A stretch of DNA of 25,887 nt, taken from positions 1-25,887 of the IMG/VR virus record IMGVR_UViG_3300017708_003153. One strand, 5' to 3'. The position numbers and the translations under genes are program-made. The notes beneath the pieces are model-generated. The model searched no databases and had not been told where the DNA came from. It was given only the letters and a program-made list of their open reading frames with translations. This stretch comes from a virus. This document shows positions 8,084 through 24,420 of the stretch, in pieces (the first letter of the stretch is position 1; each line of letters starts with the position of its first letter).

Positions 8084-11000
8084 ATGGCCACAACAGATAG
8101 ACAGAATAGATTATTAGTAGCGGAAGATTGGAGAAAGATCTACCAGGCTTTCCAACAGGCAGATTTCAAAAGTTACGACTTCGAGACCCTGAGAAGGACC
8201 ATGGTTGCATATCTCAAGGAGAACTACCCAGACGATTTTAACGATTTCGTTGAGAGTAGTGAGTATGTGGCACTTATAGATCTTATAGCATACATATCAC
8301 AGGCACTATCGTTCAGGGTTGACCTAAACGCCAGAGAGAATTTCCTAGAGACTGCTGAGAGAAGGAACAGCGTTTTAAGATTAGCAAGATTGATCAACTA
8401 CAATGCCAATAGGAATATACCTGCAACAGGAATGTTGAAAATAGATTCAATATCAACGACACAGGACGTGCAGGACAGCACAGGATCCAACCTCGCAAAT
8501 TCAAACATCATCTGGAATGACTCAGCGAATTCAAATTACAGAGAACAGTTTACCGCAATCCTTAACGCGGCAAACCAGACAGGACAACTGTTTGGAAATC
8601 CAAGGGAGTCAAACAAGATTGGAGGCATAAGCACAGAGGTTTACACATTAAGTTCCAATCAGTTGGATCTTCCCATATTTAAATTTTCGAAGTCGGTGGG
8701 AGGCACAAACAGATCATTTGAAATAGTACCAAGCACAATAAACGACTCAGAGAGCATATACGAATCAACACCAGTGCCGGGTACTGGACTTACATACACA
8801 TACAGATCGGATGGATCTGGGGATAGTAGCAACAACACAGGTTTTTTCTTTCTGTTCAAGCAAGGAACAATGGAGAACCAAGAGTTCACGGTAGACACAG
8901 CGATAACAAATTATGTAAAAAGTTTTGAGACAGCCAACATCAACAACACGGATGTGTGGCTATACAAGTTGGACCAGTTTGGACAACTTTCAGAATCATG
9001 GAAGAAAGTTCCATCGCTGGCAGGAAACAATGCAATTTATAATTCATTGGCCAAGGGAGAGAGAAACACTTACAACATAGTGACAAAAAACAATGATGCG
9101 ATTGACCTAGTATTTGGTGATGGCAATTTCTCCAATATTCCTCTAGGAACATTCAGGATATACTACAGGACTAGTGACAATGCCAAGTACGCCATACAGT
9201 CTGCGGACATGCAGAATATACGGTTGACTGTCCCCTACATAGATGTCAATGGTGCACAACAATCACTGTCTATGAATTTGAGCCTTAAACAAAGTGTGTA
9301 CAATTCAGCGGCAACTGAGTCAAATGATTCTATCAAGGAGAAAGCCGGCCAGGTATACTATTCTCAGAACAGGATGATCACGGCAGAGGACTACCAGGTG
9401 GTTCCACTGTCAGCGTCACAGGAAATAGTAAAAGTGAGATCTGTCAACAGAACAGCATCTGGTATAAGCAGAGCAAAAGAAATATTAGATCCAACAGGAG
9501 CGTACTCAAACGTCAACGTGTTTGCAGAGGACGGCATTTTGTACAGAGAGGAATCGTTACAGCAATTCACATTCACATTCAACAACAGGAGTGACATACA
9601 GTCAACAATAGACACATCTGTAGAAGCAAAGTTGAAAGAAGCATACGCTAGACAGTTTTATTATTTAAAGTATGCTACCAAAGGCGTCAGCACACTGTCC
9701 GCAACATGGAATTCAACGACAACTTCCACCAATACCAACACAGGTTATTTCACTTCTGGTGGTGCTTTAGTCATAGGTGATTCAGCCACATCTAATATGA
9801 AGTATGCAAAACCTGGTGCATTAGTGAAATTTACATCACCAGACACGAGAAAATTTTTAAACGGCACATTGGTGACATCGACAACAGACAACGCTGAAGA
9901 CAGGTTATGGGCCAAGATAGGTGCAGTAGTGCTTGATGGAGCCAATTCTGGTGCGGGAAATCTTGAGTCAGGAGTTGGTCCAGTTACGCTTAACAACATA
10001 GTGCCACATGGTTCGGTTATAAATGCAATTATACCTAATTTCAGTACATCATTTAGTACAACGCTGGAAGCAGAGTTAATAGACAGAATAGAAGCCTATG
10101 AGGAATTTGGATTGAGATATGACATAGATTCAGAGACATGGAAAGTGATCACATCAACCAATCTTAGCACAAGCACACTTTTTGATCTGTCCAATGCAGG
10201 GTCAACAGCGGCGATTAATTCTGATGCTAGTTGGTGGTTCAAGTTCACCAATGATGGAAACACATACACTGTCAAATACAGGAAATTAGAATACCTTTTT
10301 GAATCAGAATCACAGAACAAATTTCATTATGATGTGGATGAGAAAATTTACGACTACACGACAGGCAAGACTGTAAAGGACACAGTAAAATTATTGAAAA
10401 CTAACAGCATTGTTTCCACAGGAAACAGTGTGGGATATCCATTGACGTGGCAAGTGGTTGATGTTGTAACAGAAGCAGATGGTTTCCAGGACAATAGGAA
10501 AGTCAAGGTAGGTTTTTTTGATGCAGATGACGACGGTGTTGTTGACAATCCAGAACTGTTTGACATATTTGTTGAACCGACTTTATCGGAATCAACAAAA
10601 TTTGCATTCCAAGAAAAGTATATTTCGTATGATAACATTGAGAGGTACAGGCCATACGCGGCATCTAATTTTGTTGTTGCAGAAAAAGAAGCAGACATAA
10701 ATCTCAACACAATAGTATACACTGATGAACAATTATTTTACTTCTATGACTCAGCAGAAGACGTGATCAAGAAGTACAGTTCTACAACTAACACACTTAC
10801 TACAACTACAGATTACATAGCAAGAAGAGGCAGAAGCTCAATTGAGTTCCAGTACAAACATCACGCGGGACAGGAAACTAGGATAGATCCTAGTGTGTCA
10901 AACATTGTTGATGTATACCTATTAGAACGAACATACGATAACCTATATAGGATATGGTTGCAAGATGGTGGAATGAAACCAACAGAATCAACGGCAGATC

Positions 11001-11566
11001 AATTAAGGATCAATTACTCTGGTGCACTTAATCCTTTAAAATCGCTATCAGATCAGATCATATATCATCCGGTAAAATATAAATTACTTTTTGGTACAGG
11101 TGCAGAAGAACAACTACAGGCAACTTTCAAGGTCGTGAAAAATACAAAAACCAACGTTTCAGACGCGGTGATCAAGACGAGAGTGATAGCCGCTATCAAT
11201 GAATACTTCGCACTCGACAACTGGGACTTCGGGGACACTTTTTATTTTACAGAATTAGCCGCTTACATACACAATCAATTAGCACCAGATTTATTGACAG
11301 CAGTGATTGTGCCTAACCAGTCAGGACAGGGTTTTGGGTCCTTGTTCCAACTTGACTCGGCGGCGGACGAAATTTTCATCAGTGGGGCCACCGTTGATGA
11401 TGTGTCAATTATTACAGCACTTGGAGCCAATCAATTGGCGGCATCAGGCACTGTAGTCACATCAACATCAACTGCCACGAACAACACCACAACAGGATCA
11501 GCGGTATCAGGCTCTACTACAACAGGTTCCGGTTCAAGCACCGGCAGTAGCGGGTCAGGATACTAA
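8084..11566 (+). CDS. 6: Baseplate wedge protein gp6, enlarged
   Basis: The 1160-aa protein has both ends of gp6. The N-terminus (about 1-120) contains RLLVAEDWRKIYQAFQQADF and FRVDLNARENFLETAERRNS. A baseplate-J-like part has LVFGDGNFSNIPLGTFRIYY around 343-362. The C-terminal domain has WDFGDTFYFTELAAYIHNQL from residue 1047 and DEIFISGATVDDVSIIT, matching the T4 gp6 C-terminus. gp6 forms the inner iris of the baseplate with gp25 and gp53. T4 gp6 is 660 aa; the extra length lies mainly between about 470 and 1000, with strand-rich sequence I do not recognise. The last 39 residues (1122-1160) are a low-complexity Ser/Thr/Gly tail ending GSGY. The start follows a NATAAATA element and lacks a Shine-Dalgarno; N-terminal family similarity supports this ATG. 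The stop overlaps the next start. Confidence 0.92.
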   Translation: MATTDRQNRLLVAEDWRKIYQAFQQADFKSYDFETLRRTMVAYLKENYPDDFNDFVESSEYVALIDLIAYISQALSFRVDLNARENFLETAERRNSVLRLARLINYNANRNIPATGMLKIDSISTTQDVQDSTGSNLANSNIIWNDSANSNYREQFTAILNAANQTGQLFGNPRESNKIGGISTEVYTLSSNQLDLPIFKFSKSVGGTNRSFEIVPSTINDSESIYESTPVPGTGLTYTYRSDGSGDSSNNTGFFFLFKQGTMENQEFTVDTAITNYVKSFETANINNTDVWLYKLDQFGQLSESWKKVPSLAGNNAIYNSLAKGERNTYNIVTKNNDAIDLVFGDGNFSNIPLGTFRIYYRTSDNAKYAIQSADMQNIRLTVPYIDVNGAQQSLSMNLSLKQSVYNSAATESNDSIKEKAGQVYYSQNRMITAEDYQVVPLSASQEIVKVRSVNRTASGISRAKEILDPTGAYSNVNVFAEDGILYREESLQQFTFTFNNRSDIQSTIDTSVEAKLKEAYARQFYYLKYATKGVSTLSATWNSTTTSTNTNTGYFTSGGALVIGDSATSNMKYAKPGALVKFTSPDTRKFLNGTLVTSTTDNAEDRLWAKIGAVVLDGANSGAGNLESGVGPVTLNNIVPHGSVINAIIPNFSTSFSTTLEAELIDRIEAYEEFGLRYDIDSETWKVITSTNLSTSTLFDLSNAGSTAAINSDASWWFKFTNDGNTYTVKYRKLEYLFESESQNKFHYDVDEKIYDYTTGKTVKDTVKLLKTNSIVSTGNSVGYPLTWQVVDVVTEADGFQDNRKVKVGFFDADDDGVVDNPELFDIFVEPTLSESTKFAFQEKYISYDNIERYRPYAASNFVVAEKEADINLNTIVYTDEQLFYFYDSAEDVIKKYSSTTNTLTTTTDYIARRGRSSIEFQYKHHAGQETRIDPSVSNIVDVYLLERTYDNLYRIWLQDGGMKPTESTADQLRINYSGALNPLKSLSDQIIYHPVKYKLLFGTGAEEQLQATFKVVKNTKTNVSDAVIKTRVIAAINEYFALDNWDFGDTFYFTELAAYIHNQLAPDLLTAVIVPNQSGQGFGSLFQLDSAADEIFISGATVDDVSIITALGANQLAASGTVVTSTSTATNNTTTGSAVSGSTTTGSGSSTGSSGSGY

Positions 11567-11571
11567 TGGCA
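11556..11571 (+). promoter_or_regulatory. Overlapping stop/Shine-Dalgarno/start junction, copy 1
   Basis: CAGGATACTAATGGCA encodes the Gly-Tyr-stop end of gp6, provides an AGGA Shine-Dalgarno and opens the giant gene at the overlapping ATG (11566). The same 16 bases recur at 25148-25163. Translation of the giant is probably coupled to gp6. Confidence 0.8.
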
Positions 11572-14500
11572 GACAACCCAACAAACGCACTGACAAATAA
11601 CGAAGTCGTTAAACAAGGTACGAATGAATACAGGCGTACTGTACAACACCTACCTGCTTTCTATAGGACAGATGCCAACCAGAGATTCCTATCAAGTACA
11701 ATGGATCCCTTGGTTCAGAAAGGCTCACTGGAGAGGGTGGACGGTTACGTAGGCAGACAGGATGCCTACACCAGGTCAATCGATGACAGGTATATCGGTG
11801 CAATCAGCAGGGATAGATTTGCATATCAACTAGAACCTACGGTAACTTATACAGACAGAGACACTACATCTGCCAATCCAGAAGACCAGGTCAAATTCAC
11901 AGGAACATATGACGACTACATAAATCAAATCAAATTTCTAGGCGGAAAAGTGGCAAACCACGATAGACTTAACAAGGAGACGGTGTACAGTTGGAACCCT
12001 GCTATAGATTATGACAAATTAGTGAACTATAGGGAGTATTACTGGATGCCAGACGGTCCTGGAGCGATAGAGATAGACTCAGTTGGACCTAGTGCAGTGG
12101 TGGAATTTGCAGTTCAGAATTTGAAACAAGGTGCATACAACTTCACTCACAGGGAGAACGAAAACAATCCTATCTTGACACTGTATAGAGGTAACACATA
12201 CAAGTTTAATGTTGACGCTAAAGGCCATCCTTTCTGGATAATGACAGAGCCATACAAGAGCAAGGTTTCTGCAGATGGCTCAACATCGACAATATTCGAC
12301 ACAGGAGTAATAAACAACGGTGCGGACGAAGGAACAGTAACATTCACAGTACCCACAACAGGCGTACCGGACACTTTATATTATCAGTGCGGCAACCATG
12401 ACGCCATGTATGGTATACTGCAGATCAAAGATGCAACAAGCACTGCGACTATTAATGTTGAGGATGACATAGTTGGAACAAAAAACTACAGCCTGAGGAC
12501 TTTAGATTTATCCAACGGAATGAAGATAAAATTTACAAACTCGTTGGTGGCAACCGCATACCAAGGTAAAGAATACTACGTAGAAGGAGTTGGTGATGCA
12601 ATCACATTGACCGATGTCGAGGATCTAATGACACCAGGCAGTTATGCAACCGAGACTACTGTGCTGTATGACCAAGCAGGGTATGATTCACGGCCATATG
12701 CCAAAGCATATTACCTACCAGAGACAAAAGACTACATCACAATCAAGAGGGATTCACAAGATCAAAATGCGTGGTCGAGGTACAACAGGTGGTTCCACAG
12801 ATCGATAATAGATGAAACGGCAAAGGTTACAGGATTTACTCCCACACTGAATGAGGAAGACAGGGCCAAGAGGCCTATTATAGAATTTGATTCAGGACTT
12901 GCCTTGTACAATCACGGTACAGTGGCCAAGAGATCTGTGACATTGTATGACACAGTGACGACGGATGCATTTAGTAAAGTTTCCAAGCAGACAGGTTACA
13001 TAATCGATGGATTACCACTAGCATCTGGAATGAGAGTAGTGTTTGCGGCCGACACAGACCCCATAGTAAAGAACAAGATATACGATGTCAATTTCGTCAC
13101 AGCAGGAGACTCAACACAGGTCATAAATTTAACCGAGGCATCTGATGCCATACCATCTAACGATGACTCTATCTTCATTGAGTTTGGTACAACGAATCAG
13201 GGCAAAACTTTCCGTTATGATAGCACCACAGAAACTTTTGTTGAAGCACAACAGAAAACAGGAATAAACCAACAGCCGTTGTTTGGCATGTGGGATGATA
13301 ATCACACCTCATTCGACGATACCACTACATATCCTAATTCAACTTTTTCAGGAGCGAAAGTTTTTGCTTTTGCAACATCGGACACAGCGACCACTGACAC
13401 GGTGCTTGGAATTAAAGTCAAGTACAACACAATTAACAATGTAGGAGACATTGTTTTCGAATCTGATCACACGTCAGGGACGTTCACTTACAAGAGTGGA
13501 ACAGACACGATCACAAAGAACCTGGCAGAAGGACATCTTCATTATACCACAGGCATAAGCACACACAACTCGAGAAGTGCTTGGATTAAAAGAACAAGTG
13601 AAAGCAAACAGCGTGTCATTAGGACTTTCATAGTAAACGCAACTGAGAAACAATTATTTGCAATAGACTTTTACAAAGATTCAGCGGACCTATCTGATTT
13701 GGAAGTGTCTGTGACTGTGAACGGATCGAGGAAAACTCTAATCACAGATTATACCATAGAAACAGGAACAAAAAACAAATTCATAAAATTCAACATAGCA
13801 CTAGAAGTCAACGACCAGGTCCGGATCGCGGCACACAGCAGTGCTGATAAGATTGCCGACAAGGGCATATATGAGATACCGGAGAACCTAGCAACCAACA
13901 GCCTCAACAAACAGTTGGGCACTTTTACTTTTGGCCAGATATTGAATCATGTCAAAGATATCTTTGACAAGAACCAGGATGTAAAAGGTATAATACCCGG
14001 AGTATCAAACTTACGGGATAAACCAAATGCCAGGCTCAAGGGTGGAAGCATACATCAACATGAAGCGCCATTGGTACCTGCTATTTTTAGCACAATAGAC
14101 CAGGAGACAAACTTCTTCACAGCAACGGATTACGTAAACCAGGAGTATGAGAAATGGTACAACGCATTCCTGACACACGCAACAGGAACAGCGTATGAGG
14201 GGGTGGCCGCTGACAGGGTTGATGAAATAATCACAGCCATAACGCCAGGTAGGAACAGCACTTTCCCTTTCTACTACGAAGACATGATAGGTTGGGGAGA
14301 AAATGTTTCGACTAGATCATATACAGTGATGGGAGCATCACAGACCGACTACGCACTGAACTCACAACATGATATAACAATATTGAGCAATAGAGCGGTA
14401 TACGTTTACCTTAATGATGTTCAACTATTACTAGGAACAGACTACACATTCAGCACAACAGATGACAGTGTGTACATCAGCAAGCCATTAGCAGAAGGTG

Positions 14501-17500
14501 ACAAAATAGTAATCAAGGATTACACAGATACAACCGGCAGTTACATGCCACCATCGCCAACCAAACTTGGAATGTATCCCAAGTTTACACCTGAAGCATT
14601 CACAGACACGACTTTCATCACAGATACAGCAATGATAAGGAGGCATGATGGAAGTACAATCAAAGCATATGGTGACGAACGTGATGACCTCATAATAGAA
14701 TTAGAGAAAAGAATTTACAACAATATAAAAGTAGTATACGATCCAGCATTGATAGACATACATGATGTGTTACCAAGTGCTTTCACGTCAACGGAATACA
14801 CGCTACAGGAAATAGATAGTGTGATGAGCCCAGATTTCTATCAGTGGGCGGGACGTAACAACGTGCAATACATCAATAACACAGTTTTCTCAGAGGGATT
14901 ACCTTTCACCTACAACTACGCAAGATCAAAAGGCAGACTAATAAATGAGAACTTGCCAGGACACTGGAGAGGAATATACAAATATTTCTACGACACTGAC
15001 GTCCCTCATATTAGACCATGGGAGATGCTTGGCCATTCAGAGAAACCCAGCACGTGGGACGCTACCTATGGAACCGCTCCATACACGTCAGGCAATGATG
15101 TGTTATGGAATGCAATAGCAACAGAACCTGGAAGATACGGAAAACCATCAATCGGATCCTACCTACCAGTTGATTCATCAGGAAATTTACTAGACCCATT
15201 AGCGGCAGGACTCGTTGATAACTTTGACATACCAGGAAGGCAGAATGCTTGGAAGTTTGGAGATCAAGCACCAGCGGAGACGGCATGGAGGAGATCCAGT
15301 GCTTATCCTTTCACCGTGATGAAGACCTTGGCACTAACCAAACCGGCAAAATTCTTCTCTAATTTTTTTGATCCATCTAGGCTTACAACGAATACGGCAG
15401 GAAATCAGATATACACATCTACTGGTGTGAGAAAAACACTAAAGACAGCAAAATACCATTTAGAGACAGAAACCGACCTAAAAACAGGTATCACAACGAG
15501 ATACCAAACAGCGGGGTACCAACCGTTTGTAATAAATTATCTAACCTCTAGAAACCTAGACAGTAAGACCTTCTATTACGACAAGATGAAGAATCTGTCT
15601 GTACAGTGGTCATACAAATTATGTGCATTCACAGATAAGGACAATATAAAAATCCTGACAGACAGTGTGTCTCCAGGATCAACAGCAGGATCAAAATTCA
15701 TACCGGATGAGAATTACAAGATATTATTTAGAACATCTAACCCTGTTGAGAGTTTCCAATATTCAGGTGTGCTTATAGAGAAAAATACAGATATCAGTGA
15801 GGATGGATCAACAGTGTTGGGAGGATACAAGTTATTGGGTTACAGCACTGTCAAACCTTACTTCAACTTCAACTACCCTGTCAGAACAACAACAGCAAAG
15901 GCAGTGTCTGTTGAGGGATCTACTGTGGTCAAACAATATGCAAATTATCAAGGGACAACGCAGACCATACCATATGGATACGTGTTAAACACCATTCAAG
16001 ATGTAGCGGACTTCCTGTTTGGATATGGACATTGGTTGGAATCACAGGGCTTTCGATTCAACAAGTTCTCAAAGGAACTTAAAGAAACAATAAACTGGGA
16101 GAACGCAGTCAGAGAGTTTTTATTCTGGACAACGCAGGAGTGGACTCCTGGATCAGCAATCACAGTGTCACCTGCCGCTGACGGTTTTGAACTGAACACC
16201 AACAACAGCATTGTGGGGAAACTGAGGAACCTAGCAGGAGACTATTCATTACTAGACTCTGGAGGCAGAAAGATTGATATAGGCGAAATATCGACCAAGC
16301 GTATAGGTAAGACATTTGAGTTGGGCATTAAATCCGACACGGTGGGTCTTTATAACATAGCACTGAACACTGTGCAGAAAGAACACATACTGTTGTTCGA
16401 CAACAGCACAGTTTTTTCTGACATCATTTATGATCCATTCACTGGATTCAGACAACAGAGATTGAGACTGGTAGGATGGAAGACAGCAGGGTGGAACGGA
16501 GACTACTATGCACCAGGCTTCGTGTTCGACGCCGCGAAAGTCACGTACTGGTTGGCAAACACGGATTACAGGATAGGTGACAGCGTTGAACACCAAGGCA
16601 AGTTCTACGTGGCAAAAACCAATCACAACTCGGGTTCGACTTTTGAGACAGCCAATTGGAAGCTCAAAGACAAAAAACCAGCACCACAGTTGGTACCCAA
16701 TTTCGAGTACAAGATCGCACAGTTCAATGATTTCTATGAGTTGGAGACCAACAACTTTGACGAATCACAACAGAAGTTGGCACAAAGGCTTACAGGATAT
16801 CAGAGCAGAGACTACTTAGAAAATTTATTTGTTAATGATGTTTCTCAGTACAAGTTCTACCAGGGCTACATCAGGGAGAAGGGCACACAGAACGCCATAG
16901 ACAAGATTCTCAAGGTCAAGTATGAGGGCGAGGACATAAGTCTTGACCTGTACCCAGAATGGATGATACGTACAGGTAAATTTGGTAACACAGATTCCAT
17001 TGAGAACATACAGATTGTTCTAAAGGACAACGAGATAAAGGCAAACCCACAAAGTATAGAACTTTTAGACACATCCAATGACACGGTGGAGTACAGTAGA
17101 TCAGATTCTATATCCAAGGAGAATTTCTACTACAAGCCAGTTGAATACACAGCATCAAACACATTTCAGAGATTGGACTACACCAAGGAAGGAGTCAGCA
17201 GGGACACAGCACAAGTCTTAAAGACAGCAGGGTATCCTCAACTGCAACAGGTACAACACACTGCGTTCAACATTGATGAAATATTAAATTTAGACATGAA
17301 TGCTATCACAGCCAGTGATCTCATTTGGGTTGCCAACAAGAGCAACCGGGACTGGGACGTGTTGAGAATTACAAGTGCTGGCATAAAGATAGCAAATCTA
17401 CAGTTGATCAACAATGCCGCACAGTTGGAGATCACGTTCACAGGATCACATACATTGTCAGCAGGTACGACCACAACTGATGCCGACTACTTCGGCATAT

Positions 17501-20500
17501 CAAACAGTGAGGAAGCAACACTTAACGGTGTGTATCGTGTCAGTTCCACACCAGACCACAAGACAGTGACCATAGACTACGACGGTAACGTTGGATTCAT
17601 CCCCGCCCTAGAGGACGGTTCGACCGCTGACAGTTACGGAAACGTATACAAATTTGTATCAGTTAGATTGGCATCGATGGACAATGTCAACGATTTAATT
17701 AGTTTTGAAGAATACATAGACAAGGATGATGCCACAGAACAGCCAGGCGACAAGGTGTTTACAGACTCCGACATGTCGGGTCTATGGCGTGTATACGAAA
17801 AACACGATCCATACACTACACAACTACGGCCATCACCAGACGTGATCACGGCGGACCAGCATTTCGGACACAGGATCGTAGCACGTAATGATGGTAGGAC
17901 AGTCATTGCCTCAGCACCAGGAAAAGGACAAGGGGAGGTTCACTTCCTGTTCAGATCTATTCCAGATGCAGGCACGGAATGGCTGACTCAATTGACTGCA
18001 ACAATGTCTGACAATGATGACAACACCAGCAGATTAGGTGAGTCACTTTCAATAAGCACTGATGAAAACTTTGTGGTTGCGGGTGCACCATACGCCAACG
18101 CTGTCGGGGCCGACGGAAGCACAAGATTTATTGACTCAGGACTCATTAAGATCTACATTTGGGATCCAAGCACATTTAAGTACGGTATACTAGACACAGT
18201 GAGGGCACCGACCGATGGGTCGACAGTAAACGAGAATCTCAACTTTGGATGGGCACATAAAATATCAGAACCTGGTGCAACATCAACAAGGACTACAGCA
18301 GACAAATATATGTTTGTTTCTGCTCCAGGGCATGACAACGATCGAGGAAGAGTGTACATGTACACGTGGGGTATCGGTGCAGATGGATCAACATACGACA
18401 CCTGGACACAGGACTACACAATCGAACCACCAGCGGGCGGTCGAGGACAGAGATTTGGACACAGGATACAGGCCAACGACAACGGTGACATCATCGCTGT
18501 CAGTTCACTGGCACCAGGCAACGCGGGCAAGGTAGAGATCTTTATCAAGACGTCACAGAGCAACGACGGAAGCACACAGAATTCATTCGCACTGGCACAA
18601 ACTATCACCGGAGTGGCAAGTGACGGATCATCAATCAACACTGCTTTTGGAGAATCCATGGCGATGAGCAAGGATGGCACCACACTTATAATTGGCGCCC
18701 CGGGGGTTGATGGCACTGCACATCCTGACACAGGTGCCATTTACTACTACAAATGGAATGCGGATGATTCAACAAACACTTACACTTTGAAACAGACCAT
18801 TAATGCACCTAATACTATCTCAAATATGAAGTTTGGTACCACTCTAGGTTTGAACAACAATGGCACAAGAATAATAATAGGTGCTGAGAATTTTGCAAGT
18901 TATAAAGAAATAAAATTTGATTCTGGCGAGACCACATTTGACTTGCAGGACACTAGCATAGTGGACAGTAACGTTGAGTCCGGTGGTGCATTCACGGCGA
19001 CCATGTACAACACCAAGTTTGTGATAGACGACCGACTGACGTCTGCTAACATGTCAGCAGATGATGACTTCGGACGTGGGGTTTGTATTACTGACAACTC
19101 AGTTTACGTTGGTGCACCGAAAGATGATGCCAATACGGCAACAGACGGAAGCACCAAGATAGTCAATGACGGATCAATTGTTTGCTATGATCTCACAGTC
19201 AGTGGAAAATATGCATGGAATAACATTGTTAGTGAAACTGCACTAATGGACACGGAAAAACTTGGTAAGGTATTCGAATTCAACAACAAATCAAAACAAT
19301 TAAGAGACTACTATGACCTATACGATCCTGTTAAGGGCAGACTAATGGGCGTAGCCGACAGAGAAATCAACATAAAGACGGCTTGGGATCCGGCCACGTA
19401 CAATGTTGGAGTGAATGCAAACACAAGCACACCATGGGCAGAGAAACACATAGGTGAAGTATGGTGGGATCTGTCAACAGTCAAATGGTTATGGTACGAG
19501 CAGGATACACAGGAATATAAACACAATCACTGGGGACAGACATTCCCGGGTTCGAGCATAGACATTTACGAATGGGTAGAATCTCGATTACTGCCAAGCG
19601 AATGGAACAGGAGAGTCGAGGGCAGGGCACAGCAAACTGTAACAGGCACTGCTCTGTACGGTGATGATTCACAGTACACAGCGACACAGAGATATGATTC
19701 GAGACTAGACCAGTTCGTCAACTACTATTACTACTGGGTCAAGGGCAAGGGCACACTGCCGACCAACAGCGTGGTTGCGAGGAAAAACACTGTGGCTTAT
19801 GTGGCAAATCTTATACAGAATCCTAGTGCATTTGACTTTAAATATTACTCAGTCACAGACACAAATAAATTTTTACTTAACAATGTAAAAAATCTAGTCA
19901 ATGACGACATAGTGTTGAACATGGACATAAGGACCAACACTTTCGAAGGTGACTCCCACAGCGTGTGGAAGTTGGTTAGGGAAGGTGATACAGAATACAG
20001 GCCTGGGGTACATATAGAGACACGTTGGTGGGATTCATTGATAGGTAAGAATTCAGTGGGAGACATTGTCCCAGACCTGGATTTGCCACTCAACGAAAGA
20101 TATGGCAACAACATACGGCCAAGACAGAGTTGGTATGTGGACAGATACAATGCATTAAAAGAAATAATTGATTATGCTAACTCAGTATTAAAGAAAAATC
20201 AACTAGTTGGCCAAATCAATTTGAAAAATCTAGATTCAAAAGATCCAGAGCCCACAGCACAGAGTTTGGAGTGGGACGCCTCCGTCGACACATATGCGGA
20301 ATTGACCTACGTGAACACAGCAGACATATCGGGCACTGTGAACTACTTGGTCAAGGCAGACGAGACGGCCAACAATTTTTGGGCGATATACACCTGGGAT
20401 GGTACTGATTGGTCTAGAACCAAAATACAGACCTACAACACCTCTGCATACTGGAGTTACACAGACTGGTATGGCACAGATCCTGACATACACCAAATGA

Positions 20501-23500
20501 TCCACAGCGAAAACACTCCGATAGACAAGCAAATTAAATTCGAATACGAGTTGGACACTTTAGATCTTGCCATAGGTAAACACGTCAAGGTCACCAATGC
20601 AGACACAGGCGGCTGGAAACTGTTCATGAAGACTTCAACAGGTTGGACTAATGTTGGAACGGAGAACGGTACAATCAGATTAAGCACAAAACTTTACGAC
20701 TACAGCCAAGACGCATCAGGATTTGCCGGCCAAGACAACTTTGACGACAACTTCTTTGACCAGGAGCCAAGCATTGAGACAAGGAAAGTGTTGACCGCAT
20801 TGAGGGACGACCTGTTCATCAATGACCTAGCAGGAGAATACAACACGTTGTTCTTCACAGGACTTAGAAAAGTGTTGTCTGAACAGACGTACGTGGACTG
20901 GATGTTCAAGACATCATTCATAAATGCCAAGAACAGTGTGAGAAAACTAGACCAGAGGAAGACCTACACAACAGGAACGGATTCATGGATAGAGAGTTAC
21001 ATCAATGAGGTCAAACCATTCCACACAAAACTCCGGGAGTACAGGCTGGGTTACAACAAAACAGAGACACAGGACGGCATCTATTCAGACTTTGACAATC
21101 CAACGTTCTATGACGCTACAACAGGCAAGATCAGAAGCCTAAATGTTGATTTAGACACAGCGAAACTGACAGAGTTTCCATACCAAATGTGGTATGACTA
21201 CCACAAGAAGTACGTACAGTCAATCACAGTAACAGCAGGTGGATCAGGATATGAGGTTGCACCTACGGTGACCATACTGGGAGGTACAGAAGGATCAACA
21301 GGCCCATTCCAGATACAGGCGACCAGCTCGTCGGGTACCACAAGCGGACAGTTTGGATATTATTATCCGTTGTTCACTAGTGAGAAACAGGCCGAGATAT
21401 ATGACACACAGAATTCAGGATCAGGTACAACCAAAACTTACACATTTGATGGCTACACTGACACATTCTATGGTCCAACAACGTCAGTGAATGAATCACT
21501 GAGTGACAAGTCAGGCACGTTCAAGATGTACGTTTCACCAACTACCACGGCGGCGACTGCCACAGCAATCATACAGGGCGGCGCGGTCATTAAAATAAAT
21601 GTTACAGGCATTGGTGCAAACTACACAACGACACCTACTGTGGTGTTGTCAGGCGGTAAGACGGATGGAACAACACCGACCGACACAGCCAAGGCCTATG
21701 CTAATTTAAACAATGATCTAGTAAGGGACTTTGACACTACTATCAAGTTTGACAGAGTTTCAAGCACTTCACGTGTTGTTGATTGGGCGGCATCAACCGC
21801 ATATGCTTACAATGACTTGTTGAGATACAAAAATCAACTGTACAAAGTCACAAATGCATTCACGTCAAGTACAGACTTCGATGACAACAAAGGAAGCGTT
21901 TACAAAGTTTACGGTGACGAGACAGGACTGACAGCGGCAGACAGGACAAAGGGATTTTACACACCAGGTTCTGGCATGCCGGGCAATGAACTGGACCAGG
22001 TGATGACAGGCGTTGACTACGGTGGCACCATGGTTACGGGTCTACTATTCAACCAGGAAGCAGGTTGGGACAAATCGGGTTGGTATGACTTCCCATGGGA
22101 CAACTACGGAAATTCGAGAATCAAGGCATTCAGGGCAGACGGGTCGACATCATCATACACATTTGACACTGCGCCGACGAGCACTGAGGTTTATCAGGTA
22201 TACATCACAGCGGATGACAGCACAAGAAGAAAATTAAGTGACGTAATAAGGGGCGACGGGTCGACAGTGACATTTACTATCAGCGAAACAGCAGACGGTG
22301 ATGCTCTCGTTGAATTCATACCGTTCGACGACGACGGTGTGCTTACACCAACAGACGACAGGACAATGGATTCCATAATCAAAGGTGGCCTGTTCACTTC
22401 AGCACTGGGTCACGCACCTAGCGATATAGTGTTAGAGGGAGATGCCTTTGTCTCACCAGACACAAGTTACGCACCAGAAGAAACTGTACCAGGTCAAATT
22501 TTTGACACACTAGATATTAAGGTTTACACATCGCCAGAGTCGGGTGTGCCTTTCATAAGCGAAATGAATCATAGAGGTAACGGAAGCACTACAACATTCT
22601 CAATAGGTGATTATCCCGGGTCATTGGGATCAGTGACTGTATCTGTTGATGGTGTCGTACAGAAATTGACAACAAACTATTCGATCAATGTTGGGAACAA
22701 AACCATTACATTCACATCCGCGCCTGCAAACCACTCTGTGATATCAACCAAGGTGTTCGCAATATCAGGTGAGAACTACAGGGTGTTGAACACATTCACC
22801 GGCGACGGCAATACGACGTCATTCTTGACATCTACCAGGGGTGAGTTCAACCTAGATTCATCATCATCTGACATCTATGTCACGATAGACGGTGTACCAA
22901 CATCATCGTACACGACCAGTACCACAGCAAACACAATAACAGTGGAGTTCAGTGCGGCGCCAGTGGCAAGTTCTTACATACAGATAGCAGGTTTCAACAA
23001 ATCGGCAACAAGTTCAAGAAGTTACGCAAGTATAAGGACTCAAGAACTGACTTATGCAACAGGGACCAACAGATACACAATAACATATCCACCTGGATCT
23101 ATTGGACCATTCTCAGGTTTGACGACAGTCGAAGTAAACGGCAGGGTGTTACGAGGCCCGGACAACACTTACTATGTTGGTGACGGAAGCACTTACACCT
23201 ACGGAGTTGTATCGGGACTCAGCGACGACTCAACAGTTGATCCTGCTAAAACGATAACAGCCGCTTCGCAAGTAGAAGTATATGTAAACGGAACCAAAAA
23301 AGATTTGAACACTGATTACACAGTGGACATAGGAAACCAAAACATTGAATTCGTCACAGCGTCTGTACCAACATCAACAGATGTAATTTGTATTTCAACA
23401 TTGGTTGACCATCAGTACTTTAATGAGGGCACCGATATTATTTTGATATCAAGTGCAATCACTTCACCTTACTCGTTGTCAAACAGTGACAAGATCTCTG

Positions 23501-24420
23501 TTACAACGTTCAACAACGCTCTTGGAATGAAACAGAGAAGAGAAGTTCTCGAAGGCAGATCGAGCGGTGTGTTCAAATTGAGATTTGACACCCTTAATGC
23601 AGGATACACATACGTGTGGTTGAATGGTGAGCAATTGGTACAGGGATCAGATTACACAGCAAGTGGCAACACAATTACTGTGGTCGGAAAAACTATTACA
23701 TCATCTGACAGACTGGATGTTATGTACTTCGCATTAGAGACTGCGATCGGAAGCACAGGATTCAGGATATTCAAAGACATGATGAACAGGACTTTCTACA
23801 AACGTATCAGCAAAACAGAGACAACAAAATTAACATTAGATATGACGGAAGGCACGCAGACTATTACAGTTGAAGACGCAACTGCACTGCCTACCCCAAA
23901 CGCGGCGAGCAATACTCCGGGAGTCATATTCATAGACAAAGAGAGAATAGAATACTTTACAAAATCAGGTAACACGTTGGGACAACTAAGACGTGGAACC
24001 CTTGGTACAGGAATTAAGGAGCATGGATCAGGCACGGAAGTGGTAGATGCGTCTGGTACTCAAACCATCCCTTACGCAGACACTGTGTACACCAACACCT
24101 TCACAGGCGATGGAAGTACAGTTGTGTTTGCACTATCACAAACACCATCATCCGCTAGTGAGTTAGACATATTCATTGGTGGCCAACGATTGTTGCTCAC
24201 TAGCGAGGATGGATCAACTATCAACTACTCTGTTTCTGGAGCAAACGTGACTCTAAGCACCGCACCTGCTTCTGCAACACAGATAAAAATATTACACAAG
24301 AAAGGACAGGTTTGGTACACAGCACTAGATGGTAATCCGGCAGATGGTAAAGGATTGCAGGCTTCTGGCACTCAACAGGCTAAATTCATTGCTAATGAGC
24401 CTACAAACGCACCTGAATAA
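11566..24420 (+). CDS. Giant baseplate wedge/adhesion protein (gp7-like core with added modules), 4284 aa
   Basis: One uninterrupted frame of 12.9 kb. Segments recalled from the gp7-position proteins of marine T4-like phages lie throughout: LPAFYRTDANQRFLSSTMDP (about 30), SIHQHEAPLVPAIFSTIDQE (near 830), PNFEYKIAQFNDFYELETNN, GYQSRDYLENLFVNDVSQYK (near 1750), and SYINEVKPFHTKLREY (near 3150). Inserted or appended modules, in order: cupredoxin-like (195-289), CBM5/12-like (about 1658-1703), seven FG-GAP-like blades (2095-2545), two Gly-rich GY...PTV repeats (about 3217 and 3338), a second CBM-like motif (about 3402), beta-sandwich modules (about 3520-4070 and near 4180), and a GVIFIDKERIEYFTKSG segment near 4110. 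T4 gp7 is 1032 aa. In T4, gp7 links the inner wedge to the periphery. The gp7 equivalence is inferred from position after gp6 and from these segments. Translation is coupled to gp6 by TAATG. Confidence 0.75.
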   Translation: MADNPTNALTNNEVVKQGTNEYRRTVQHLPAFYRTDANQRFLSSTMDPLVQKGSLERVDGYVGRQDAYTRSIDDRYIGAISRDRFAYQLEPTVTYTDRDTTSANPEDQVKFTGTYDDYINQIKFLGGKVANHDRLNKETVYSWNPAIDYDKLVNYREYYWMPDGPGAIEIDSVGPSAVVEFAVQNLKQGAYNFTHRENENNPILTLYRGNTYKFNVDAKGHPFWIMTEPYKSKVSADGSTSTIFDTGVINNGADEGTVTFTVPTTGVPDTLYYQCGNHDAMYGILQIKDATSTATINVEDDIVGTKNYSLRTLDLSNGMKIKFTNSLVATAYQGKEYYVEGVGDAITLTDVEDLMTPGSYATETTVLYDQAGYDSRPYAKAYYLPETKDYITIKRDSQDQNAWSRYNRWFHRSIIDETAKVTGFTPTLNEEDRAKRPIIEFDSGLALYNHGTVAKRSVTLYDTVTTDAFSKVSKQTGYIIDGLPLASGMRVVFAADTDPIVKNKIYDVNFVTAGDSTQVINLTEASDAIPSNDDSIFIEFGTTNQGKTFRYDSTTETFVEAQQKTGINQQPLFGMWDDNHTSFDDTTTYPNSTFSGAKVFAFATSDTATTDTVLGIKVKYNTINNVGDIVFESDHTSGTFTYKSGTDTITKNLAEGHLHYTTGISTHNSRSAWIKRTSESKQRVIRTFIVNATEKQLFAIDFYKDSADLSDLEVSVTVNGSRKTLITDYTIETGTKNKFIKFNIALEVNDQVRIAAHSSADKIADKGIYEIPENLATNSLNKQLGTFTFGQILNHVKDIFDKNQDVKGIIPGVSNLRDKPNARLKGGSIHQHEAPLVPAIFSTIDQETNFFTATDYVNQEYEKWYNAFLTHATGTAYEGVAADRVDEIITAITPGRNSTFPFYYEDMIGWGENVSTRSYTVMGASQTDYALNSQHDITILSNRAVYVYLNDVQLLLGTDYTFSTTDDSVYISKPLAEGDKIVIKDYTDTTGSYMPPSPTKLGMYPKFTPEAFTDTTFITDTAMIRRHDGSTIKAYGDERDDLIIELEKRIYNNIKVVYDPALIDIHDVLPSAFTSTEYTLQEIDSVMSPDFYQWAGRNNVQYINNTVFSEGLPFTYNYARSKGRLINENLPGHWRGIYKYFYDTDVPHIRPWEMLGHSEKPSTWDATYGTAPYTSGNDVLWNAIATEPGRYGKPSIGSYLPVDSSGNLLDPLAAGLVDNFDIPGRQNAWKFGDQAPAETAWRRSSAYPFTVMKTLALTKPAKFFSNFFDPSRLTTNTAGNQIYTSTGVRKTLKTAKYHLETETDLKTGITTRYQTAGYQPFVINYLTSRNLDSKTFYYDKMKNLSVQWSYKLCAFTDKDNIKILTDSVSPGSTAGSKFIPDENYKILFRTSNPVESFQYSGVLIEKNTDISEDGSTVLGGYKLLGYSTVKPYFNFNYPVRTTTAKAVSVEGSTVVKQYANYQGTTQTIPYGYVLNTIQDVADFLFGYGHWLESQGFRFNKFSKELKETINWENAVREFLFWTTQEWTPGSAITVSPAADGFELNTNNSIVGKLRNLAGDYSLLDSGGRKIDIGEISTKRIGKTFELGIKSDTVGLYNIALNTVQKEHILLFDNSTVFSDIIYDPFTGFRQQRLRLVGWKTAGWNGDYYAPGFVFDAAKVTYWLANTDYRIGDSVEHQGKFYVAKTNHNSGSTFETANWKLKDKKPAPQLVPNFEYKIAQFNDFYELETNNFDESQQKLAQRLTGYQSRDYLENLFVNDVSQYKFYQGYIREKGTQNAIDKILKVKYEGEDISLDLYPEWMIRTGKFGNTDSIENIQIVLKDNEIKANPQSIELLDTSNDTVEYSRSDSISKENFYYKPVEYTASNTFQRLDYTKEGVSRDTAQVLKTAGYPQLQQVQHTAFNIDEILNLDMNAITASDLIWVANKSNRDWDVLRITSAGIKIANLQLINNAAQLEITFTGSHTLSAGTTTTDADYFGISNSEEATLNGVYRVSSTPDHKTVTIDYDGNVGFIPALEDGSTADSYGNVYKFVSVRLASMDNVNDLISFEEYIDKDDATEQPGDKVFTDSDMSGLWRVYEKHDPYTTQLRPSPDVITADQHFGHRIVARNDGRTVIASAPGKGQGEVHFLFRSIPDAGTEWLTQLTATMSDNDDNTSRLGESLSISTDENFVVAGAPYANAVGADGSTRFIDSGLIKIYIWDPSTFKYGILDTVRAPTDGSTVNENLNFGWAHKISEPGATSTRTTADKYMFVSAPGHDNDRGRVYMYTWGIGADGSTYDTWTQDYTIEPPAGGRGQRFGHRIQANDNGDIIAVSSLAPGNAGKVEIFIKTSQSNDGSTQNSFALAQTITGVASDGSSINTAFGESMAMSKDGTTLIIGAPGVDGTAHPDTGAIYYYKWNADDSTNTYTLKQTINAPNTISNMKFGTTLGLNNNGTRIIIGAENFASYKEIKFDSGETTFDLQDTSIVDSNVESGGAFTATMYNTKFVIDDRLTSANMSADDDFGRGVCITDNSVYVGAPKDDANTATDGSTKIVNDGSIVCYDLTVSGKYAWNNIVSETALMDTEKLGKVFEFNNKSKQLRDYYDLYDPVKGRLMGVADREINIKTAWDPATYNVGVNANTSTPWAEKHIGEVWWDLSTVKWLWYEQDTQEYKHNHWGQTFPGSSIDIYEWVESRLLPSEWNRRVEGRAQQTVTGTALYGDDSQYTATQRYDSRLDQFVNYYYYWVKGKGTLPTNSVVARKNTVAYVANLIQNPSAFDFKYYSVTDTNKFLLNNVKNLVNDDIVLNMDIRTNTFEGDSHSVWKLVREGDTEYRPGVHIETRWWDSLIGKNSVGDIVPDLDLPLNERYGNNIRPRQSWYVDRYNALKEIIDYANSVLKKNQLVGQINLKNLDSKDPEPTAQSLEWDASVDTYAELTYVNTADISGTVNYLVKADETANNFWAIYTWDGTDWSRTKIQTYNTSAYWSYTDWYGTDPDIHQMIHSENTPIDKQIKFEYELDTLDLAIGKHVKVTNADTGGWKLFMKTSTGWTNVGTENGTIRLSTKLYDYSQDASGFAGQDNFDDNFFDQEPSIETRKVLTALRDDLFINDLAGEYNTLFFTGLRKVLSEQTYVDWMFKTSFINAKNSVRKLDQRKTYTTGTDSWIESYINEVKPFHTKLREYRLGYNKTETQDGIYSDFDNPTFYDATTGKIRSLNVDLDTAKLTEFPYQMWYDYHKKYVQSITVTAGGSGYEVAPTVTILGGTEGSTGPFQIQATSSSGTTSGQFGYYYPLFTSEKQAEIYDTQNSGSGTTKTYTFDGYTDTFYGPTTSVNESLSDKSGTFKMYVSPTTTAATATAIIQGGAVIKINVTGIGANYTTTPTVVLSGGKTDGTTPTDTAKAYANLNNDLVRDFDTTIKFDRVSSTSRVVDWAASTAYAYNDLLRYKNQLYKVTNAFTSSTDFDDNKGSVYKVYGDETGLTAADRTKGFYTPGSGMPGNELDQVMTGVDYGGTMVTGLLFNQEAGWDKSGWYDFPWDNYGNSRIKAFRADGSTSSYTFDTAPTSTEVYQVYITADDSTRRKLSDVIRGDGSTVTFTISETADGDALVEFIPFDDDGVLTPTDDRTMDSIIKGGLFTSALGHAPSDIVLEGDAFVSPDTSYAPEETVPGQIFDTLDIKVYTSPESGVPFISEMNHRGNGSTTTFSIGDYPGSLGSVTVSVDGVVQKLTTNYSINVGNKTITFTSAPANHSVISTKVFAISGENYRVLNTFTGDGNTTSFLTSTRGEFNLDSSSSDIYVTIDGVPTSSYTTSTTANTITVEFSAAPVASSYIQIAGFNKSATSSRSYASIRTQELTYATGTNRYTITYPPGSIGPFSGLTTVEVNGRVLRGPDNTYYVGDGSTYTYGVVSGLSDDSTVDPAKTITAASQVEVYVNGTKKDLNTDYTVDIGNQNIEFVTASVPTSTDVICISTLVDHQYFNEGTDIILISSAITSPYSLSNSDKISVTTFNNALGMKQRREVLEGRSSGVFKLRFDTLNAGYTYVWLNGEQLVQGSDYTASGNTITVVGKTITSSDRLDVMYFALETAIGSTGFRIFKDMMNRTFYKRISKTETTKLTLDMTEGTQTITVEDATALPTPNAASNTPGVIFIDKERIEYFTKSGNTLGQLRRGTLGTGIKEHGSGTEVVDASGTQTIPYADTVYTNTFTGDGSTVVFALSQTPSSASELDIFIGGQRLLLTSEDGSTINYSVSGANVTLSTAPASATQIKILHKKGQVWYTALDGNPADGKGLQASGTQQAKFIANEPTNAPE
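12148..12432 (+). other. Cupredoxin-like domain inside the giant protein
   Basis: Residues 195-289 read as a plastocyanin-type fold: LTLYRGNTYKFNVDAKGHPF, an acidic/Gly loop, GTVTFTVP, and LYYQCGNHDAMYGILQIKD. His221, Cys275, His278 and Met281 are placed as the four ligands of a type 1 copper site (H ... C-x2-H-x2-M; plastocyanin has C-x2-H-x4-M). Copper binding is inferred; the motif is seen. Confidence 0.75.
16537..16674 (+). other. CBM5/12-like carbohydrate-binding motif, copy 1 (within giant CDS)
   Basis: Around residues 1658-1703 the pattern YWLANTDYRIGDSVEHQGKF, YVAKTNHNSG and FETANWKLKD follows the W...Y..GD.V...G..Y.A......W layout of chitin-binding CBM5/12 modules. In phage fibres such modules are thought to bind sugars or help folding. 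Assignment is by pattern only. Confidence 0.55.
17848..19197 (+). repeat. Seven FG-GAP-like repeats: predicted beta-propeller inside the giant protein
   Basis: Seven blades begin at FG or LG pairs at residues 2100, 2157, 2227, 2297, 2361, 2423 and 2502, spaced 57-79 residues apart. Each continues with a short strand, a DG or NG turn, a hydrophobic strand ending in (G/S)AP or a variant, then G-x-(V/I)-x-x-(Y/F). Examples are RLGESLSIS...VVAGAP, AFGESMAMSKDG...IIGAPG and DFGRGVCIT...YVGAP. This is the integrin-alpha type FG-GAP repeat; seven copies would close a propeller. Blades 4 and 6 are the most degraded. Confidence 0.8.
21217..21657 (+). repeat. Two Gly-rich GY...PTV repeats (within giant CDS)
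   Basis: SITVTAGGSGYEVAPTVTIL (about 3219-3238) and KINVTGIGANYTTTPTVVLS (about 3343-3362) are two copies of a short module of the form I-x-V-t-G-x-G-x-x-Y-x-x-x-PTV. This module is frequent in phage tail proteins. They are separated by about 100 residues of Ser/Thr-rich strand sequence. Confidence 0.65.
21769..21915 (+). other. CBM5/12-like carbohydrate-binding motif, copy 2 (within giant CDS)
   Basis: VVDWAASTAYAYNDLLRYKN then QLYKVTNAFTSSTDFD, residues about 3404-3440, repeats the layout seen near 16537: an aromatic-led strand, a Y..(G/N)D turn, then a Y-x-V/A strand and an acidic loop. It lacks the closing Trp, so it is weaker than the first copy. Confidence 0.45.
22126..24312 (+). repeat. 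Degenerate beta-sandwich modules with F-x-G-D-G-S-T openings (within giant CDS)
   Basis: Several modules share one plan: G(D/N)G(S/N)T followed by a Phe or Tyr strand, then V-x-V-(D/N)G, then DYT or NYS, then I-x-F-x-x-AP and an isoleucine-rich strand. Openings are at residues about 3524, 3564, 3671, 3746, 3872 and 4181; one without the DGST opening starts near 4000. Two similar modules lie much earlier in the protein, around residues 690-760 and 925-985. These are probably Ig-like or fibre-type folds that extend the C-terminal part outward. Confidence 0.6.

Follow-up and report, generated by a model that had tools for sequence, protein, structure and literature searches.

A predicted seven-bladed FG-GAP propeller within a RaK2/PA5oct-like giant virion protein

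Propellers are known from phage and giant-virus proteins. The window analysed here (the whole stretch of DNA, a virus record of 25,887 bases) raises the question of whether a run of FG-GAP-like units within a giant virion protein forms a genuine propeller, how it came to lie there, and what it may do for the virion. A sequence-only reading had proposed a closed propeller between 'gp7-like' segments of the baseplate wedge arm, serving as an extra receptor-binding or scaffold head. FG-GAP domains in viruses have been held to be almost unknown, and the prasinovirus MntV1 has an FG-GAP protein (PMC11467894). In our literature search, we came across no account of a propeller nested within a wedge protein of a contractile tail.

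The giant protein and its gene neighbourhood

The window contains genes for a late sigma factor (on the minus strand), a gp53-like protein, a virion protein, a gp5-like hub/lysozyme, a gp25-like protein, a gp6-like protein and a giant protein of 4284 aa, in this order. The last two are as follows:

8084..11566, + strand: gp6-like baseplate wedge protein (phrog_10646, 5.1e-287; phrog_219, 4.2e-22)
11566..24420, + strand: giant virion protein, RaK2/PA5oct-like (phrog_10938), 4284 aa; probable baseplate wedge/arm protein, at the place of gp7

T4 gp6 belongs to phrog_219, and phrog_10938 is the virion protein of RaK2/PA5oct/CBB/GAP32-like jumbo phages. The giant matches phrog_10938 with 1123.7 bits over five stretches and is homologous to it over the full length; like the RaK2, PA5oct and CBB members of this family, it lies after gp6, and its propeller is bordered by flanks homologous to theirs. 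CBB_236, the homologue of the giant in phage CBB, has been detected in virions by mass spectrometry (PMC5259590). Protein gp245 of phAPEC6 (381.88 kDa), which adjoins a wedge protein (PMC7247149), is probably another homologue.

The gene of the giant is directly 3' of the gp6-like gene, as expected for the place of T4 gp7. No match from the giant to phrog_964 (T4 gp7 baseplate wedge initiator) was found, and profile-profile comparison (hhalign) of T4 gp7 with the N-terminal, downstream and whole-giant alignments gave a probability of about 0.1 percent with shallow profiles, which does not prove absence. Thus, of the claim that the propeller lies between 'gp7-like' segments of a wedge arm, the position directly after the gp6-like wedge gene stands, while gp7 homology is undetected. 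The wedge location and the label 'gp7-like' derive solely from gene order (gp53, gp5, gp25, gp6, giant), according to which the giant probably belongs to the tail baseplate, as a wedge protein at the gp7 position.

Several other features of the giant were observed. Residues 172-290 (12079-12435) match phrog_677 ('baseplate wedge tail fiber protein connector') in its C-terminal domain, with an E-value of 3.8e-17. A CBM_5_12-like carbohydrate-binding motif is present at residues 1662-1691 (16549-16638; two stretches scoring 26.0 bits, just short of the 26.2 cut-off), and a Pseudomonas phage homologue is annotated with a chitin-binding type-3 domain. The giant (11566-24420) contains 14 copies of the tetrapeptide DGST, encoded by varying codons; several copies are located in propeller loops, where they are largely conserved across the family.

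Sequence and predicted structure of the propeller

The propeller and its blade units are assigned as follows:

17809..19206, + strand: seven-bladed FG-GAP beta-propeller, residues about 2082-2547 (Pfam, AlphaFold model, structural matches)
17863..18033, + strand: blade unit 1, FG at residue 2100; 22.7 bits, 0/2000 shuffles
18034..18243, + strand: blade unit 2, LG at residue 2157; 17.5 bits, 0/2000 shuffles
18244..18453, + strand: blade unit 3, FG at residue 2227; 27.1 bits, 0/2000 shuffles
18454..18645, + strand: blade unit 4, FG at residue 2297; 32.6 bits, 0/2000 shuffles
18646..18831, + strand: blade unit 5, FG at residue 2361; 34.7 bits, 0/2000 shuffles; best Pfam stretch
18832..19068, + strand: blade unit 6, FG at residue 2423; 11.5 bits, 0/2000 shuffles; long strand 2-3 loop, low model confidence
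19069..19206, + strand: blade unit 7, FG at residue 2502; 7.0 bits, 4/2000 shuffles reach this score; 3.7e-9 with the refined blade profile

Pfam FG-GAP_2 (PF14312) matches the propeller piece with 4.7e-15 and 55.9 bits (cut-off 23), and the whole protein with 35.5 bits; it also matches each of the 39 aligned relatives (E<=1; best, 1.6e-23). The blades start at residues 2100 to 2502 with spacings of 57, 70, 70, 64, 62 and 79 residues, which agrees with the seven units at 57-79 residue spacing that had been read from the sequence; the proposed coordinates, 17848-19197, were right within about 15 residues. In a leave-one-blade-out test, in which a profile built on the remaining six scored the left-out blade against 2000 shuffles of it, blades 1-6 outscored all shuffles and blade 7 was weaker (4/2000). 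After refinement on the relatives, a blade profile detects seven units in the window, in all 80 of the 80 near relatives and in the majority of distant ones, with one match in 84 intervals in a reversed-sequence control; this profile is not independent, because it was trained on the same set.

A structure of the propeller was predicted by AlphaFold2 from 39 sequences (pLDDT 80, pTM 0.82). The model contains seven four-stranded groups, with the propeller extending from the strand at model residues 34-40 onwards; blade 7 probably takes its outer strand from the N-terminal strand of the domain. In a Foldseek search with the model, integrin alpha chains occupy the top 11 places among the PDB matches, and VIA-align superimposes the model on integrin alpha-M with a Z of 35.1 and 3.3 Å over 371 aligned residues, spanning model residues 31-506. 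On the basis of the model, residues 2082-2547 are assigned as a closed seven-bladed FG-GAP propeller with the integrin-alpha fold, as the sequence-only reading had proposed.

A different explanation is that FG and GAP motifs occur by chance in a beta-rich protein that has no real propeller. This would fit the fact that just two stretches of the window pass with Pfam alone, and the weakness of blade 7. Against the four blades that the sequence-only reading had asked of a profile search, Pfam alone thus falls short, while the family-specific profile (seven units) and the model go beyond that number. Because the chance explanation is contradicted by the PF14312 matches in every aligned relative, the model, the shuffle test, the integrin matches and the constant seven units, we consider it hardly credible.

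The integrin alpha head (FG-GAP, PF01839), whose chains provide the best solved matches, likewise has seven blades. However, the WD40 protein Ciao1 scores close behind the integrins (Z of 31.4), which means that a common origin with them cannot be read from the fold alone. The repeat sequence, unlike the fold, does point to FG-GAP_2: propellers of this family in bacteria and viruses have the same repeats, with a short 'sxDGttLxvGAP'-type turn between strands 1 and 2. Identity between the integrin alpha head and the phage propeller is about 13-19%. In PDB sequence searches, the propeller alignment retrieved only integrin alpha-4, at chance level (E 0.35), and the flank alignment retrieved nothing. 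Integrin-type DxDxDG calcium loops between strands 1 and 2 are absent from the window and, among 431 blades of the relatives, occur in 2; on these grounds we discarded a calcium role like that of integrins. No ligand motif or catalytic motif was found in the propeller.

Insertion site, distribution and history

Relatives were aligned by the flanks on both sides of the propeller, which defined the following features:

16642..17457, + strand: upstream flank common to propeller-free relatives (flank alignment)
17785..17802, + strand: WRVYEK, host-hairpin strand 1, immediately preceding the insertion (motif W-x-[VI]-[YF]-x-K)
19210..19227, + strand: YAWNNI, host-hairpin strand 2, immediately following the propeller; in L095, strands 1 and 2 are contiguous (WAVYKKGVYSWAQYR)
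19249..19605, + strand: downstream flank common to propeller-free relatives (flank alignment)

The motif W-x-[VI]-[YF]-x-K stands before the propeller in 23 of the 26 relatives checked, and in most relatives the propeller is followed by W, then a charged strand and D. The two strands probably form one conserved hairpin with the propeller in its turn; model strands 25-30 and 502-507 are the candidate hairpin strands. The interval between the flank anchors is about 545-620 residues in most propeller-bearing members, 98 in RaK2, 107 in relative L095 and 105 in L114 and L119. In L095, the hairpin strands meet directly, WAVYKK-GVYSW / NNKWAVYKKGVYSWAQYRTQVDSVD, and thus provide a natural empty site; the site in L114 resembles this junction (PWKVYQKYGVWFEYRSENKKVD).

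The propeller is present in 61 of 72 loci that were picked by the downstream flank alone and have both anchors, a way of picking that favours kin of Pseudomonas phage Ettore. No propeller occurs in RaK2, Ettore, SCTP-2 or Vibrio 2.275.O. In the five RaK2/PA5oct/CBB-type isolates compared, the site spans 98-1539 residues and, unlike in the window, contains no FG-GAP unit. By eye, the SCTP-2 insert gave the impression of a lectin; this assignment was dropped, Pfam having found nothing. The giant of Atu_ph07 (L086 2446-15795) has about 1539 residues between the same flanks, without FG-GAP unit or clear Pfam match. Atu_ph07, whose giant is without the propeller, does have a stand-alone FG-GAP gene annotated 'hemagglutinin protein' (AUZ95081.1; L253 3019-4200, equal to Atu_ph07 243018-244199). 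This protein and the FG-GAP proteins of giant viruses are also viral FG-GAP propellers, but they are encoded by stand-alone genes, not within a tail protein; more generally, FG-GAP_2 propellers sit in surface or stand-alone proteins, whereas here one is nested inside a giant jumbo-phage virion protein.

A tblastn search with the propeller against the phage collection, which contains no isolate of the window's clade and from which near records may be missing, gave no match. A genome scan gave five loci in marine MAGs of unlike bacteria; these are probably misbinned phage contigs, and no host is inferred from them.

The history of the propeller was read from the downstream flank by maximum likelihood, in a midpoint-rooted tree of 84 rows in which some long branches meet. 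Propeller presence requires two changes on this tree, forced by well-supported branches, compared with 14.8 in shuffles, and 0 of 500 shuffles are as low. The simplest reading is one gain in the ancestor of 69 rows and one loss in L095; L141, the sister of L095, carries all seven units. Of the two events the loss is the more secure, since the midpoint rooting and the long branches weaken the case for the gain. The 353-kb record of L095 contains no other FG-GAP_2, which indicates that the propeller head is dispensable there. Of the proposal that the propeller might be present, absent or swapped as a block among relatives, presence in some and absence from others (L095 among them) were observed; free swapping was not, given the two changes and the covarying identities described below.

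Rates of change and the putative role of the propeller

Identities of propeller and flanks covary (Spearman 0.80; Mantel 0/500). Within the window's clade, the propeller averages an identity of 0.72 and the flanks average 0.71 and 0.75, and along the whole giant near relatives are 0.75 identical in the propeller and 0.78-0.79 elsewhere. In the sister clade, the propeller changes much faster, with an identity of 0.33 versus 0.53-0.56 for the flanks. Loop conservation, averaged by hand, is about 0.67-0.69 for the 2-3 and 4-1 loops and about 0.74-0.79 for the 1-2 and 3-4 loops. In the L094/L136 pair, the flanks are 74% identical and the propellers 40%; here the propeller has perhaps been replaced as a block.

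Several relatives (L088, L144, L146/L152, L156, L164, L165 and L166) have 70-350 extra aa between blades. In L156, a YHYH domain (PF14240, 2.1e-38) lies between blades 1 and 2, at interval residues 289-641. Integrins of the alpha-I type have a domain between blades 2 and 3, and some relatives here likewise carry domains between blades.

An extra receptor-binding or scaffold head on the baseplate, as suggested by the sequence-only reading, remains a plausible proposal. We favour, with a probability of roughly 0.55, an accessory interaction head that is displayed by the baseplate wedge and vertically inherited, without being the main determinant of host range. On the simplest reading, the propeller arose once in a large uncultured clade of RaK2/PA5oct-like jumbo phages; it is passed on vertically, with a clean loss in L095. 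Since it is attached at a hairpin turn, and since the host domain also occurs in its absence, the propeller would stand out from the wedge as an independent head. Its loop-bearing face may bind a conserved feature of the host envelope or a glycan during landing, or another part of the virion (fibre or whisker). In other lineages, the head would additionally bear domains between its blades, like the I domain on integrin alpha heads. In the window's clade, the partner of the propeller would change slowly.

A primary receptor-binding head that sets host range would account for the integrin-like fold, the fast divergence in the sister clade and the L094/L136 pair. We regard it as improbable, since the propeller is not hypervariable in the window's clade, its identities track those of the flanks, its presence changes only twice on the flank tree and its blade number is constant. 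It is the slow change in the window's clade that argues against a primary host-range role.

An internal structural role would explain the slow evolution in that clade just as well. The propeller could be a rigid hub inside the virion that holds wedge proteins, fibres or whiskers and makes no host contact, consistent with vertical inheritance, constant blade number and, in the window's clade, conservation matching that of the core. The related phage CBB has Kelch propellers (CBB_550, CBB_552 and CBB_554), of which CBB_552 is found in virions (PMC5259590); they too are beta-propellers of a RaK2-like jumbo phage, but separate proteins of the Kelch and not the FG-GAP type, outside the baseplate giant. 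On the other side, L095 lost the propeller entirely without retaining a second copy, RaK2, Ettore, SCTP-2 and Vibrio 2.275.O lack it, the sister-clade propeller changes far faster than its flanks, and large domains are tolerated between blades. Fast change together with nested domains outside the window's clade argues against a purely internal scaffold; internal docking is the main rival to the accessory head, possible but less likely.

More tentatively, the accessory head may be a modular display platform, a hub acquired once, whose inter-blade loops accept binding domains (YHYH, adhesin-like stretches), so that it would parallel, in a phage, an integrin head bearing an I domain. If so, it would be a second recognition organ of jumbo phages, apart from the tail fibres. 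A single gain, constant seven blades, a precise natural loss and nested domains would together make a clean case of modular baseplate growth, and, for an uncultured and widespread group of phages, the propeller provides a candidate recognition or docking part that can be put to the test.
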